From: Mangrovibacterium lignilyticum
GTDB lineage: Bacteria > Bacteroidota > Bacteroidia > Bacteroidales > Prolixibacteraceae
DNA: 64,000 nucleotides
Reading direction: 5' to 3'
Assembly: GCF_010882175.1 (NCBI RefSeq)
Contig: NZ_WKLH01000001.1
Coordinates: forward strand, 62,001 to 126,000
Each line of letters begins with the position of its first letter. Within the stretch, counting starts at the first letter, position 1. The position numbers were made by a program, and so were the translations under genes. The notes below the pieces were generated by a model, which saw only the letters and a program-made list of their open reading frames with translations, was not told the origin of the DNA and did no database searches. Shown in pieces: positions 15,171 through 20,320 of this stretch.

Positions 15171-15935
15171 TCAATCTGTCACCATTCCTTTGAATTCCGG
15201 CTCACTCAATTTCTTTTGTAACCGGTCAATCGAGAATTGCACAAACGATAGTTCTTCCTGCTCTCTTGAAACATTAACCTCATTCGGAAAAACCTTCCAG
15301 GCCATCATCGCTGTGCTATCTCCAACAGCCATAATTTGCCCTTTGGGAGCGGGGAAATTTCCGGAGGCTTTATATGTTTCAATTGAATTGGGATTGAAGA
15401 ACAAGTAGGCATCAAAAGTCTGATTCAACCACTTCTCAATCGGAGTATTCTTATAAACCTCCAACTCGACTGGTCGAATACCGTGACTAAAAAGCTGCTC
15501 ATACAAATCATTCAACGGTTTGTTTCCGCGCAGATAAACCACCTTCTGCCCCGTGTTCTGACTGGCAATCAACTCACTTAGCGAAAAGATATTTGGTTCT
15601 TTGGAACGATGAATTTTCATTCGGGTCTTCTTCAAAATAGCTTCCTGTTTCGAACTCAGGCAAAAGACCTCATGCTGACTCCGTAGGCCAAAATGATGGC
15701 GAAAGCGTGCCAGCCAATGTGCTGCATAGCTACTGGTCACAACCAGGCTGACTTTCTCATCGCGGACACTAGCCAGAAATTCGACTTTAGGCTTGCGAAA
15801 CTGAATACGAAACAACGGTTGTTCGATAAAACGAACAGGTTGGCTTTTTAGCCATTGCCGGGTTTTTTCCGACAAACTTCTTCCAATAAATACTGAGGGT
15901 AATTCCATCTCTTTAATGTTTAAACTCTTTTCCAT
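15171..15935 (-). CDS. hemD: Uroporphyrinogen-III synthase
   Basis: Cyclises hydroxymethylbilane to uroporphyrinogen III, the branch point to haem, siroheme and corrinoids. The 254-residue protein has the loosely conserved HemD architecture: SVFIGRSLSEKTRQWL start, VVTSSYAAHWLARFR, KVVYLRGNKPLNDLYEQLFSHGIRPVELEVYKN, and DAYLFFNPNSIETYK with AVGDSTAMMAWK. Its start overlaps the cysI stop by 23 bases (an alternative ATG lies at 15905, MELPSVF), so it is coupled to cysI. That fits supply of the siroheme needed by sulfite reductase. No cysG-type methyltransferase is present in the window. Confidence 0.83.
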   Translation of the reverse strand: MEKSLNIKEMELPSVFIGRSLSEKTRQWLKSQPVRFIEQPLFRIQFRKPKVEFLASVRDEKVSLVVTSSYAAHWLARFRHHFGLRSQHEVFCLSSKQEAILKKTRMKIHRSKEPNIFSLSELIASQNTGQKVVYLRGNKPLNDLYEQLFSHGIRPVELEVYKNTPIEKWLNQTFDAYLFFNPNSIETYKASGNFPAPKGQIMAVGDSTAMMAWKVFPNEVNVSREQEELSFVQFSIDRLQKKLSEPEFKGMVTD

Positions 15936-17607
15936 GAACTATTTCCTTCACATATCCTTTCCGAACAACAAAATCACCAAATCCTTCACCGTCCGTGCGA
16001 TCTTTTGCATAGTCAGCAATAAGCGGCCGAAGCTCATTCAATATTCCTTCTTCGGAAAGCGTTTCTTTATAGAGAGTATTCAAGCGGGTTCCATTACGGT
16101 TACCACCCAAGTATAGATTATAATGACCAGCTGATTTCCCGATGAAACCAATTTCCGCCAAATAAGGACGTCCACATCCATTCGGGCAACCAGTCATTCG
16201 AATAACAATATCTTCCTGTAGCAAGCCATGTTCGTCCAGAATAGCTTCAATCTTCGTCATCATATCAGGCAGGTATCTTTCAGCTTCGGCAAAAGCCAAG
16301 CTACAAGTATTCAACGCGACACAAGCAATCGAATTCTGCCGCAAACCCGATAGGTTCAAAGGCCAAACACTATATTTTTTCAGAATTTGGGCAACTCTTT
16401 CCTTTTGATCAGTATTGGCAATAATCAGGTTCTGATTACCTGTCAAAATGAATTGCGCATCAACCTGCTCGGCTACCTCACGCAAAGCTGTTTTCAACTT
16501 CAAACTATCAGTGTCTTTGACACGACCACCTTCGATAAACAAGTTGAGATTCCATTTGCCGTTTTTCCCTTTTACCCAACCAAAACGATCGCCATTCCGG
16601 GTAAAATGGTACGGACGAGCTTCTTCCAATTCATATCCCAGGTATTTATTCACCTCGGCTTTGAACCAATCCAAGCCTTTGTGATCAATCGTATATTTCA
16701 ACCGGGCTTGCTTCCGGTTCTGGCGGTTCCCATTGTCCTTTTGTACCAAAACAATTTTTTCGGCTACATCTACAGCCTGCTCTGGTTTACAAAAACCAAT
16801 CACATCGCCCAAACGCGGATAAGTTTCCGGCATACCGAAAGTAGTACCGAAACCACCACCGGCAACGACATTATAACCAACAAGTTTTCCTTTTTCCTGA
16901 ATGGCAATAAATCCCAAATCCTGAGAAAACACGTCCACATCGTTGTAAGGAGGAACAGCTACGCCAATTTTAAACTTCCGGGGCAAATAGCGATCACCAT
17001 AAATCGGCTCAACATCTTTTTTGCCGTCAACCAATAATTTCTGATCCAACCAAATTTCGTGGTAGGCAGTTGTTTGCGGCGTTAAATGAGCCGAAATTTC
17101 TCCTGCCAACTTATACGCCTGATCATGGATTTCGGATTCTTCCGGATTCGCAAATGACATCACGTTCCGGTTTACATCGCCACAAGCTGCGATCGTATCC
17201 ATCAGCGCTTCGTTAATTCCCTGAATCGTTGATTTCAGCTTATTTTTAAAAACACCATGTAATTGAAATGCCTGGCGAGTTGTTAATTTCAATGTTCCGT
17301 TGGCATGTGTATCAGCCAATTTATCCATTTGTAACCACTGCTCTCTCGAGGCAATTCCTCCGGGCAAACGAACGCGGATTAAAAAAGACCAGGCTGGCTC
17401 AAGCTTTTGCTGCTTCCGCTCTTTTTCCAGGTCACGGTCGTGTTGCTGATAGATCCCGTGGAATTTGGACATTTGTGTATCTCCGTCAGCAATCGCTCCT
17501 GTTACCGGATCAGCCAAACTTTCAACCAATGTACCTCGCAGATAGTTGCTATCGTATTTTAATTTCTCTACTTCTGACAATTTGCTCCAATCAATTTGCT
17601 CACTCAT
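15913..17607 (-). CDS. cysI: Sulfite reductase hemoprotein (beta) subunit
   Basis: Six-electron reduction of sulfite to sulfide at a coupled siroheme-4Fe-4S centre. The 564-residue length is that of CysI. The two ferredoxin-like/siroheme half-repeats are visible (RLPGGIASREQWLQMDKLAD... and the region around RNGDRFGWVKGKNGKWNL). The cluster cysteines lie in ACVALNTCSLAFAEAERYL and in RMTGCPNGCGRPYLAEIG near residues 425-490, with the Cys proximal to siroheme in TGCPNGC. It sits between cysJ (147 bases upstream) and hemD (overlapping) and belongs to the attenuator-controlled operon. Confidence 0.96.
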   Translation of the reverse strand: MSEQIDWSKLSEVEKLKYDSNYLRGTLVESLADPVTGAIADGDTQMSKFHGIYQQHDRDLEKERKQQKLEPAWSFLIRVRLPGGIASREQWLQMDKLADTHANGTLKLTTRQAFQLHGVFKNKLKSTIQGINEALMDTIAACGDVNRNVMSFANPEESEIHDQAYKLAGEISAHLTPQTTAYHEIWLDQKLLVDGKKDVEPIYGDRYLPRKFKIGVAVPPYNDVDVFSQDLGFIAIQEKGKLVGYNVVAGGGFGTTFGMPETYPRLGDVIGFCKPEQAVDVAEKIVLVQKDNGNRQNRKQARLKYTIDHKGLDWFKAEVNKYLGYELEEARPYHFTRNGDRFGWVKGKNGKWNLNLFIEGGRVKDTDSLKLKTALREVAEQVDAQFILTGNQNLIIANTDQKERVAQILKKYSVWPLNLSGLRQNSIACVALNTCSLAFAEAERYLPDMMTKIEAILDEHGLLQEDIVIRMTGCPNGCGRPYLAEIGFIGKSAGHYNLYLGGNRNGTRLNTLYKETLSEEGILNELRPLIADYAKDRTDGEGFGDFVVRKGYVKEIVHGKEFKH

Positions 17608-17754: not shown

Positions 17755-19548
17755 TTAATAAACATCAGCCTGGTAACGTTTCTCCTTTTTCAACTTCTTG
17801 AAATAATCACGTGCCTGCTCTTCACTCATTCCACCTTGTGTTTGAATAATCTCCAACAAAGTTTTCTGAACATCCTTGGCCATGTATTTCATATCGCCAC
17901 AGAGGTAGAAGCTGGCTCCATTTTCTAACCAATCGAATACTTCGGCTTGCTTCTCCGCCAAACGATGTTGCACATAAATTTTTTCGTCCTGATCACGTGA
18001 GAATGCCAAATCAATTTTTCCAAGAACTCCTTTTTTCAGGAACTTTTGCCACTCAATCTGGTAGAGGAAATCAGAATAAAAACGACGTTCACCGAAGAAC
18101 AACCAACTTTTCCCTTTACGTTTTTGAACTTCACTTTGCTGAACAAAGGCACGGAATGGAGCAATTCCTGTTCCGGCACCAACCATGATAATTGGTGTTT
18201 CGTCGTTCTCCGGTAAACGGAATCCGGGGTTGCGTTCAATGTAAACAGGAACTTCCTCTTCAATCTCAATGCGGTCGGCCAAATAAGTAGAAGCTGCTCC
18301 TTCACGGTTGCGACCTTTATTTTCATACCGAACTGTTGCAACGGTAACATGCACTTCATCACCTACTGAATCCTGGCTGGAAGATATGCTGTACAAACGG
18401 GCAGGCAACGTACGAAGTAAGTCAATCAGCTCCTGTGCTGTCAGAGTTGAAGGGAACTCCACCAGCAAATCGAGGATATCATTGCCCCACAGGTAACTAT
18501 CCAGCAACTTGTCATCTTCCAGAATTTTAGCGACAGCCTCAATTCCTGTTTTCTCCGCATATTTTTGAATCACATCGCGCGTTAAGAGCGTAATCTCAAC
18601 TTGATGACGAAGCGCCACCTGAAGTGAATATTCCGTCTTCTTAACCACAACCGGACTCTCTGCATCCAAGTTCAATTGAGCTATAATGCCATCGACTAAA
18701 GCAGGCGGATTATCAGTCAAAACACCAACTGAGTCACCAGGTTGATATGAAATTCCCGATCCTGCCAAGTCCAATTCAACGTGATAAACTTCTTTATCCG
18801 AGTCGCGACCGGTAATTTTCACTTTGTCGATTACTGTAGCTCGGAATGGATTTTTCTGATTGTAAACAACAAGCTCTTCCGGTTTAGCTGTTGCAACCTC
18901 TGCGCTGGCTCCGATTGGGTGCAATTCAGCCAGTTTCCGCAGAATGGCATTCATCCAGGTATTCGAATCTTCTTCATAATCCACATCGCAGGTTACAATT
19001 GGGAAAAGTTCTTTAGCGCCGGCATTTTTCAGTGCGTGATCAATATCCAGCCCGGTCTGGCAGAAAAGCTTGTAACTTTTGTCCCCCAAGGCCAATACCG
19101 AAAAATTCAGGTTCGGTAATTTAGGTGCCCGTTTACCTGTAATGAAACGGTGAAAATCTTCAGCCATTTCAGGTGGTTCTCCTTCGCCGTGGGTACTCAC
19201 GATAATCAACACGTTCTCTTCTTTCTCCAATTGCTTTGGATTATAATCATCCATGGCAAAAACGCCTGCGCTAATTGATTTCTCGCCAAGTAAGCCTGAC
19301 AACTTGTTTGCAATACCCTCGCTCCGACCGGTGTGCGAACCGTACAAAATAGTCAACTTTAAATGTGATGCGGCGACAACCGCTGCGGGTGTTTGAACGG
19401 CTGCGCCAATAGACGGTTTGTTGTGCGCCACTGTTAGCCCCTGAAAATATCCGCTTAACCAGATCAACTGTTCGGGTCCTGCACCTTCCAACAAAATTTC
19501 TAAAGCTTTGGACTGCGCTTCACTTAAGGGATTTAATTTAATGCTCAT
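17755..19548 (-). CDS. cysJ: Sulfite reductase flavoprotein (alpha) subunit
   Basis: Passes electrons from NADPH through FAD and FMN to CysI. The 597-residue chain has an N-terminal linker, a flavodoxin domain (LYGSHTGRSEGIANKLSG at about residues 69-86; STHGEGEPPEMAEDF; LALGDKSYKLFC), a connecting FAD domain (RLYSISSSQDSVGDEVHVTV and GAASTYLADRI) and an NADPH domain (MVGAGTGIAPFRAFVQQSE; FFGERRFYSDFLYQIEW), ending RYQADVY as is typical of CysJ. It is the second structural gene of the operon, 48 bases after the DUF2061 gene. Confidence 0.96.
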   Translation of the reverse strand: MSIKLNPLSEAQSKALEILLEGAGPEQLIWLSGYFQGLTVAHNKPSIGAAVQTPAAVVAASHLKLTILYGSHTGRSEGIANKLSGLLGEKSISAGVFAMDDYNPKQLEKEENVLIIVSTHGEGEPPEMAEDFHRFITGKRAPKLPNLNFSVLALGDKSYKLFCQTGLDIDHALKNAGAKELFPIVTCDVDYEEDSNTWMNAILRKLAELHPIGASAEVATAKPEELVVYNQKNPFRATVIDKVKITGRDSDKEVYHVELDLAGSGISYQPGDSVGVLTDNPPALVDGIIAQLNLDAESPVVVKKTEYSLQVALRHQVEITLLTRDVIQKYAEKTGIEAVAKILEDDKLLDSYLWGNDILDLLVEFPSTLTAQELIDLLRTLPARLYSISSSQDSVGDEVHVTVATVRYENKGRNREGAASTYLADRIEIEEEVPVYIERNPGFRLPENDETPIIMVGAGTGIAPFRAFVQQSEVQKRKGKSWLFFGERRFYSDFLYQIEWQKFLKKGVLGKIDLAFSRDQDEKIYVQHRLAEKQAEVFDWLENGASFYLCGDMKYMAKDVQKTLLEIIQTQGGMSEEQARDYFKKLKKEKRYQADVY

Positions 19549-19596: not shown

Positions 19597-19827
19597 TTAG
19601 ATTTGATATTCAATGTCAGAATCGTCAATTCGACCAAACTTGATGCGATTCCAAGTCCTTTCGTGCATGTAATACAGAAACATCTTTGTGAATAATTCGA
19701 CACCGCCAATTGTTACGGCAAACTCCAGCTGCCCTGTTACCAACCAGGCAATCATCATCGTGTCTATAGTCCCGACTGTTCTCCACGAAATCGACTTGAC
19801 AATGCTGCGATAAGGTTTTTCTCTCAT
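19597..19827 (-). CDS. DUF2061 small membrane protein
   Basis: A 76-residue protein matching DUF2061: RSIVKSISWRTVGTIDTMMIAW, then VTGQLEFAVTIGGVELFTKMFLYYMHERTWNRI. It has two predicted hydrophobic segments (about 17-33 and 38-55) and the family's charged HERTW end. DUF2061 genes are often found beside assimilatory sulfate genes, but the molecular role is not known to me. It is the first gene after the leader-peptide attenuator (49 bases after the U-tract) and so is the direct target of that control. Confidence 0.85.
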   Translation of the reverse strand: MREKPYRSIVKSISWRTVGTIDTMMIAWLVTGQLEFAVTIGGVELFTKMFLYYMHERTWNRIKFGRIDDSDIEYQI

Positions 19828-19876: not shown

Positions 19877-19910
19877 AAAAAAAAGCCCCTCTGCGGTTTG
19901 CAGAAGGGCT
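19877..19910 (-). terminator. Attenuator terminator in the sulfite reductase leader
   Basis: Minus-strand RNA folds an 11-bp stem AGCCCTTCTGC / GCAGAGGGGCT (one G-U pair) with a 5-base loop AAACC, followed by eight U (19884-19877). It precedes rather than follows the operon genes. Bases 19897-19907 of its 5' arm and loop are exactly complementary to 19957-19967 inside the leader ORF, giving a mutually exclusive antiterminator. Confidence 0.92.
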
Positions 19911-19945
19911 CTTGGTTTTTATCGTTTCGTTATGCTATAACAATA

Positions 19946-20002
19946 TCAACTTCTTTCCTTCTGCAAAAAAGAACCACAACACATACACATGCACATCATC
20001 AT
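19946..20002 (-). CDS. Cys/Met-rich leader peptide (attenuation uORF)
   Basis: An 18-codon ORF encoding MMMCMCMCCGSFLQKERS, stop TGA at 19948-19946. Five of the first seven codons are Met and four of the first nine are Cys. The last codons contain 19957-19967 (codons for F-L-Q-K), an 11-nt segment complementary to the terminator's 5' arm and loop. Inference by analogy with trp/his attenuators: when charged Cys- or Met-tRNA is scarce, ribosomes stall on the codon run, the antiterminator forms and the DUF2061-cysJIhemD genes are transcribed. When supply is ample the ribosome reaches the stop, masks 19957-19967 and the terminator forms. It is far too short for standard gene calling. Confidence 0.85.
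   Translation of the reverse strand: MMMCMCMCCGSFLQKERS
19957..19967 (-). promoter_or_regulatory. Antiterminator segment inside the leader ORF
   Basis: RNA TTTGCAGAAGG (as DNA, minus strand) pairs over 11 of 11 bases with CCTTCTGCAAA at 19907-19897, which otherwise forms the 5' arm and loop of the intrinsic terminator. Confidence 0.85.
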
Positions 20003-20173
20003 GTTTACGTTACGCGGGCTAATATTTACAGAAGTTGTCTTTTTCATTATCTTTGAATCTACTTCAATTTCTTTTCTGATCGTTCAATTTATATTTTAAT
20101 TGAACTTGCTTTCCGGGGTTTATTCACCTCTTTTGCATTAACAGATAAAGAACTCTTTTTGTTATCTATTGTG

Positions 20174-20181
20174 CAAATATA
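20174..20181 (-). promoter_or_regulatory. Bacteroidota-type -7 box for the sulfite reductase operon
   Basis: Reads TATATTTG on the minus strand, an exact TAnnTTTG match, giving a 5' leader of roughly 165 bases before the leader ORF at 20002. A weak TTTC lies near the expected -33 position. Confidence 0.5.
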
Positions 20182-20320
20182 GAGGTTAAATCGACATTTC
20201 GAAATACTTCGATGTAAAAAAAACATTAATTTAAAACACGATTTATCTTAAGATCCTAAAAACCACCCACCTATTAAATGATGAATTATCACAAATTGTT
20301 TCACGTTAATTACATTTTAT

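Follow-up and report, generated by a model that had tools for sequence, protein, structure and literature searches.

A methionine/cysteine leader peptide with the features of a transcription attenuator is conserved upstream of sulfite reductase operons in Mangrovibacterium lignilyticum and other Prolixibacteraceae

The trp, his, thr, and ilv operons of Enterobacteria are preceded by attenuators in which a short ORF with a run of regulatory codons is combined with three mutually exclusive hairpins and an intrinsic terminator ahead of the biosynthetic genes. In the trp leader, the regulatory codons overlap segment 1. Leaders rich in Cys codons have been described in other phyla, and the papers on them are cited here from excerpts of their text. 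Runs of Cys codons occur in short ORFs before cys operons of Mycobacterium, Propionibacterium, and Bifidobacterium, for which the excerpted text describes no conserved terminator hairpin (PMC1262725), and a further paper cites Canestrari 2020 regarding cysteine leader peptides (PMC13236596, excerpt). In Rhodobacterales, the uORFC-8-2 motif before cysS is predicted to act by ribosome-mediated attenuation (PMC8632094, excerpt). Within Bacteroidota, excerpts report clues of leader-peptide attenuation before amino-acid biosynthesis operons of Flavobacterium psychrophilum (PMC9723704) and short ORFs within long 5′ UTRs of Bacteroides thetaiotaomicron (PMC7366714); the excerpted text of an analysis of premature terminators contains no Bacteroid- or sulfite terms (PMC2965389). 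No Bacteroidota Met/Cys attenuator was found in open-licence PubMed Central titles and abstracts. To that extent, this literature is consistent with the first-pass annotation of the DNA studied here, which knew of no described counterpart in sulfite reductase operons of Bacteroidota.

We analyzed a 64,000-nucleotide stretch (the window) of the 5.6-Mb M. lignilyticum assembly. The operon of interest lies on the minus strand, as do all features listed below unless stated otherwise. Its first structural gene encodes a DUF2061 small membrane protein (19597..19827; PF09834, 77.1 bits). This is followed by cysJ for the NADPH sulfite reductase flavoprotein (17755..19548; TIGR01931, 748 bits, above cut-off), cysI for the hemoprotein (15913..17607; TIGR02041, 785 bits, above cut-off), and a hemD-like gene for uroporphyrinogen-III synthase, which serves siroheme supply (15171..15935; PF02602, 43 bits, above cut-off). 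These profile matches bear out the order DUF2061-cysJ-cysI-hemD that had been proposed behind the leader. The plus-strand neighbour, a chorismate mutase gene, reads away from the leader, and we therefore assigned the leader to the sulfur operon.

Upstream of DUF2061, the sequence, a five-locus alignment, and related leaders define a leader peptide ORF, MKKTTSVNISPRNVNMMMCMCMCCGSFLQKERS, of 33 codons plus a stop (19946..20047; codons 20047-19949). The first-pass annotation had given the leader 18 codons; this length did not hold, as an in-frame ATG at 20047 extends the ORF upstream and the 18 codons are its 3′ portion. The ATG is conserved in all five aligned loci, which are the closest relatives, and in this alignment gaps between ATG and stop consist of whole codons only, with a ragged 5′ UTR. 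Codons 16-24 form the regulatory run MMMCMCMCC (19976..20002, read 20002-19976), which confirms the five Met and four Cys in nine successive codons noted earlier and is echoed in the run composition of relatives. In the window leader, the last Cys codon is nine codons ahead of the ORF end.

The remaining elements are pairing segments. Segment 2, the antiterminator strand (TTTGCAGAAGG, 19957..19967), occupies the last leader codons and forms 11 bp with segment 3 (CCTTCTGCAAA, 19897..19907), which pairs either with segment 2 or within the 5′ arm and loop of the terminator. The terminator hairpin 3:4, AGCCCTTCTGC-AAACC-GCAGAGGGGCT (19884..19910), was recognized in the sequence and in the window and consensus folds. 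Its 11-bp stem joins 19910-19900 to 19894-19884 with one G-U pair and runs into a tract of eight T (19877..19884), the first of which closes the stem. Thus, both the terminator with its U8 and the full complementarity of segments 2 and 3 over 11 bases stood as first described. A pairing element absent from that description is the protector arm, segment 1 (CTTCTGTAAA, 20025..20034), within codons 5-8, which appears in the minimum-energy fold, the consensus fold, and the swap test described below. Because these early codons supply the protector arm, the four segments known from trp-type attenuators can all be recognized (pairings 1:2, 2:3, and 3:4), and a trp-like mechanism is better supported than before.

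The 172-nt window leader had a minimum energy of −55.2 kcal/mol (z = −6.1), which none of 200 shuffles equalled in stability, and this fold contained the 1:2 and 3:4 stems. In shuffle tests on the window, p was 0.010 for 2:3 and only 0.070 for 1:2. A rival hairpin, GGGGC-T8-GCCCC, overlaps the 3′ side of the terminator and counts against the model. The terminator scan of the window reported a shorter overlapping hairpin, not the full one. In the window as in relatives, where it is conserved, the intrinsic terminator sits between the leader ORF and the first structural gene.

We consider it highly likely that this locus controls DUF2061-cysJ-cysI-hemD by ribosome-mediated transcription attenuation in the manner of the trp and his leaders, with sulfur amino acids as its signal; the conserved leader, codon run, antiterminator, terminator, and protector arm all support the attenuation reading of the first-pass annotation. 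When Cys-tRNA, and probably Met-tRNA, is ample, the ribosome would cross MMMCMCMCC to the stop codon and cover segment 2; after it departs, segment 2 would re-pair with segment 1. Whether segment 2 is covered or held by segment 1, nothing would keep segment 3 from the 3:4 hairpin, and transcription would terminate near 19877. A shortage of charged Cys- or Met-tRNA would stall the ribosome in the run, which lies in the loop that segments 1 and 2 enclose. Segment 2 would then be open to pair with segment 3, no terminator would form, and sulfite reductase would be made. We infer the stalling signal, the read-through, and the counting of Met beside Cys. The elements themselves, their mutually exclusive pairings, their conservation, their partner-specific pairing, and their gene context are observed.

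This arrangement resembles the trp, his, thr, and ilv leaders in its short ORF with regulatory codons, three exclusive hairpins, and terminator before a biosynthetic operon. It differs in that the codons are those for Cys and Met and the run follows segment 1, in the loop: segment 1 (codons 5-8) is 5′ of the run (codons 16-24), and the two do not overlap. No sequence kinship with these leaders is expected. The position of the run outside segment 1 is a difference in layout and not a defining feature of leader-peptide attenuators. Since the regulatory codons are in the loop after segment 1, the separation of segments 1 and 2 by a stalled ribosome would presumably be steric, a point against the model. 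As in the actinobacterial cysteine leaders, a short ORF ahead of cys genes carries a Cys-codon run near its stop codon; unlike those leaders as excerpted, the present one combines Met codons in its run with an antiterminator and a conserved intrinsic terminator (PMC1262725). It shares with uORFC-8-2 a predicted ribosome-mediated attenuation through Cys codons, whereas that motif, according to the excerpt, has two tandem Cys codons, a tRNA synthetase gene behind it, and an alphaproteobacterial host (PMC8632094).

For comparative tests, we assembled 72 leaders, from which four out-of-frame duplicate ORFs and the doubtful L175 had been removed beforehand. All 72 keep what appears to be a short translated ORF with a codon cluster for the pathway product. 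Against shuffles (p ≤ 0.05), 2:3 pairing was significant in 62 and 1:2 pairing in 45 of them. In a swap test on 46 representatives, native 2:3 partners had a mean pairing energy of −14.08 and swapped partners one of −11.31 (0 of 20,000 permutations), with the native pair beating its own median swap in 42 of the 46. For 1:2 the values were −16.97 and −12.98 (0 of 20,000 permutations), and the native pair won in 37 of 46. In these pairing tests, dropping near-identical sequences was the sole correction for relatedness. The Prolixibacter and OsmC-type leaders have different segment sequences that still pair with each other. Hence the leader ORF and the 11-nt complement, on whose conservation the first-pass annotation had staked its reading, are kept in relatives, with the pairing maintained across Prolixibacteraceae.

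Thirty-seven leaders were also tabulated without gaps, aligned on the core motif. The core 2:3 pairs hold partly by construction because the motif anchors the table; the free flanking positions −2, −1, and 6 were paired in 34, 35, and 32 of the 37, respectively, and double changes there include G-C to T-A. Pairing stopped at −3 (19/37) and 7 (5/37). Beyond the core, 1:2 was weak in this table (21/36 at offset 0 and 15/36 at −1), and longer 1:2 stems require bulges. RNAalifold, run on 27 leaders with no structure supplied, returned a five-pair 1:2 stem and a 13-pair 3:4 stem, with changes on both sides in 6 of the 18 pairs; for 1:2, a double change was seen in only one of the five pairs, in one sequence.

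The spacing of the elements was also examined in the 72 leaders. The distance from the last Cys codon to segment 2 had a median of 15 nt (6-23), that from segment 2 to the stop a median of 9 nt (−13 to 16, with segment 2 past the stop in four), and that from the stop to the terminator a median of 32 nt. The footprint of a ribosome extends roughly 12-15 nt downstream of its A site. The spacing fits the geometry that the mechanism would need, in which segment 2 is exposed by a ribosome stalled in the run and masked by one that has reached the stop codon. Furthermore, ORFs with a Cys/Met run plus a terminator were sought on both strands of 265 loci (1.18 Mb); there were 138 matches, out-of-frame duplicates included, versus 0 in each of five shuffled copies that roughly preserve dinucleotides; the 265 loci are redundant, and some were retrieved via leader similarity.

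Cysteine is a likely signal for the leader, and its codon content suggests dual sensing of Cys and Met. The same attenuator could instead sense cysteine only, with the Met codons serving an unstructured loop, ribosome speed, or spacing; this overlaps the dual reading and is a possibility that we hold to be real, if short of even. It agrees with the fact that sulfite reduction feeds cysteine first, and in a peptide alignment of 22 leaders the sole invariant column was Cys (adjacent Met-Cys occurred in at least 90%). Cys-rich, Met-poor short ORFs also precede DUF2061 in other families (L246, L261, and L175/L255), and published cysteine leaders are described, in the excerpts at hand, by their Cys codons with Met unmentioned. 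Nevertheless, among 402 run codons of the 46 representatives, whose runs were bounded by Cys codons, 145 were Met and 175 Cys, compared with 1.3-6.6% Met and 0-1.1% Cys in the four operon proteins. At least two Met were present in the run of every one of the 72 leaders (the scan itself demanded one), and Met is retained in leader types whose peptides otherwise have little sequence in common. Given this Met share, far above that of the operon proteins, and the two or more Met in 72 of 72, selection appears to have kept Met as part of the signal.

Metal binding by the peptide has been proposed for some Cys-containing upstream ORFs, and sequences of the MCMCC type could bind soft metals. The nascent or released Met/Cys-rich peptide might thus itself be the sensor, for example of copper or zinc, or act in trans, as reported for one leader peptide (PMC7298713, excerpt). 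We regard this as very improbable, as the peptide beyond the run varies while the RNA pairing persists, and leaders with inspected downstream genes mostly precede sulfur-metabolism genes. In L221 and L224, the motif GCAGARGA is held in a different reading frame, encoding AEE and not QK, so that the RNA is preserved where the peptide is not. Still less probable is an incidental ORF behind a 5′ leader element, either a riboswitch or a protein site, that controls the terminator. If the promoter is placed correctly, such an element would have about 120 nt ahead of the ORF at its disposal, and there is a conserved box at the promoter; yet the stretch from promoter to ORF is unconserved in the five closest loci, and the constant feature is the ORF with its codon run.

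Rfam searches returned no described leader family. At gathering thresholds, tRNA was the sole family over threshold in the window and none was found at the leader. In a relaxed search of the leader region on the same strand, the best matches were PyrR (29.6 of 54 bits) and Phe_leader (24.5 of 55 bits). The described Rfam leader families were rejected, as none exceeded its threshold at the leader and no match fitted.

The promoter region was assigned from sequence. A −7-like box, TATATTTG (20174..20181), retains TAnATTTG in the five aligned loci and matches the Bacteroidota promoter consensus TAnnTTTG, placing a putative transcription start near 20167; a sigma-70 scan of the region was uninformative. 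Just 5′ of this element, a second box, TCGAAGTATTTCGAAATGTCGA (20191..20212), is largely conserved in the five-locus alignment and could serve a regulator that works in addition to attenuation. The region from these boxes to the ORF was not conserved in the same alignment.

To place the leader within the family, we searched for DUF2061 independently of it, which gave 79 places in 67 of 140 Prolixibacteraceae genomes, 72 of which were examined. A Met/Cys leader was present at the operon head in 62 of these 72 loci. It was immediately upstream in 54, of which 47 passed a strict rule including the terminator and seven were assigned by eye (L034, L037, L051, L062, L071, L072, and L073), and it headed a longer operon in eight. 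In L038, L063, L065, and L082, a glutamyl-tRNA-reductase-like gene lies between leader and DUF2061 (supported by Pfam in the genome of L082 only). L084 and L086 have a Prolixibacter-type leader at the operon head, traced via L138 and L234, and for L061 and L090 the leaders (in L289 and L288) precede an operon with OsmC, Cys/Met-enzyme, and sulfite-reductase-like genes. L091 and L095, of the OsmC/Cys-Met enzyme operon type, run into contig ends, which stopped the tracing. At E ≤ 0.001, a leader-peptide profile built from Prolixibacteraceae leaders matched 57 places among the 140 genomes.

No Met/Cys leader was found in the roughly 4-6 kb of upstream DNA searched in eight loci (L088, L089, L092, L093, and L096-L099), and the leader is therefore not universal to Prolixibacteraceae sulfur operons. 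These loci (with L280-L287) adjoin APS-kinase/CysD/CysH-type genes, as indicated by Pfam on two proteins. Since DUF2061 genes beside such genes have no leader, sulfate activation seems to be under other control in this family.

Leaders of other shapes were also found. In the M. lignilyticum genome, cysK (contig C8, ~902,520), outside the window, is preceded by a Met/Cys leader, MNQNFFYMCMCCCMKMQNGEGMCQHQ, with its own terminator (C8 ~902,350-902,500; L275), which is unlike the cysJI leader. A similar leader precedes cysK in a genus-mate (G003, L274), and the second cysK-like gene of the M. lignilyticum genome has no Met/Cys leader. A second leader shape in relatives, for example MSKSLSINNMMCMCCCMLTQHVES with a terminator that is typically GCCCTTCAC..GTGAAGGGC, was found nine times (L220, L225, L228, L230-L233, L288, and L289). 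It precedes OsmC in L225 (Pfam), cysteine-synthase-like and sulfite-reductase-like genes in L220, and genes for a Cys/Met PLP enzyme and ThiF in L231. A third shape (L227, with L226 as its sister) precedes carbonic anhydrase and OsmC. In Marinifilum and Labilibaculum, two Met/Cys leader-terminator units stand in series before the same operon (L127:3610-3980 and L139:3600-3980), the second, downstream leaders showing weak 1:2 and 2:3 pairing.

We give an even chance to a broader reading, in which a dual Cys and Met attenuator commands a small regulon of unlinked operons through differently shaped leaders with a common codon signal. Its members would be cysJI, cysK, and an operon of OsmC, Cys/Met PLP enzyme, ThiF, TusA, and sulfite-reductase-like genes, sometimes with tandem leaders. 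If so, this part of the phylum would use an RNA code in the place that a protein regulator gene holds in Flavobacteriaceae. As a separate observation, OsmC-family genes lead several leader-controlled sulfur operons (L225, L228, L230-L233, L288, and L289). Because they head such operons together with sulfur genes, this suggests that the OsmC group has a role in sulfur supply.

The leader itself is real and conserved, and very probably works as an attenuator; the kind is already known, the setting and the codon signature are new, and no new principle is added. If dual sensing is correct, sulfur assimilation in these Bacteroidota would be controlled without a protein regulator by reading the charging of two sulfur amino-acid tRNAs together, and it becomes testable whether one leader can integrate two amino acids of one pathway. 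The attenuator would also explain the ORFs of about 30 codons ahead of cys operons throughout the family. The approximately 70 natural variants could inform attenuator design, and the leader would supply a cysteine-responsive part for Bacteroidota genetics.

In a named set of 80 loci, the leader was present in Mangrovibacterium, Gaoshiqia, Sunxiuqinia, Draconibacterium, Maribellus, and Prolixibacter, and in tandem in Marinifilum and Labilibaculum. The profile missed the leaders of Marinifilum, Labilibaculum, and Prolixibacter and is thus unfit to measure breadth; in 393 genomes of the order it recovered the window's own leader plus five weak matches at chance level (E 0.015-0.046). A strict DNA pattern, which is specific and far too narrow, found only the window's own leader in 395 genomes of the class. 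In a survey of the order, DUF2061 places occurred in 74 of 393 genomes; the 30 best-scoring were drawn, and among the 27 that could be analyzed, a directly upstream leader of the window type with a strong terminator was found at the window's own locus only. At one further locus (L252), a Met/Cys short ORF with a terminator lies some 1 kb upstream.

Short ORFs rich in Cys codons (GCCSCCCCS, CCCMCSFCCCSS, and similar) lie ahead of DUF2061 at L246, L255, and L261, which belong to other families of the order. No good hairpin accompanies those of L246 and L261, and that of L255, whose peptide is identical to that of L175, has an imperfect one (−12.4 kcal/mol). Perhaps these are translational or Rho-linked versions of the leader. 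For Campylobacterota and Lentisphaerae, the scan of the named set found no short ORF of the Met/Cys leader kind within 450 nt of DUF2061, and in a few loci Cys-rich short ORFs lie more than 2 kb away.

In six annotated flavobacterial loci (L164, L168, L181, L184, L186, and L187), an Rrf2-type gene, identified by Pfam in three of them, is located upstream of DUF2061, and our scans found no Met/Cys leader. The gene occupies the position before the DUF2061 sulfur operon that corresponds to that of the leader here; these loci differ in having a protein regulator gene instead of an RNA attenuator. This Rrf2-type gene may regulate the flavobacterial operon.

Eight contigs from a viral collection (L102-L109) encode DUF2061 proteins 52-55% identical to that of the window, which means either that phages carry these sulfur genes or that the contigs are bacterial and were misassigned.
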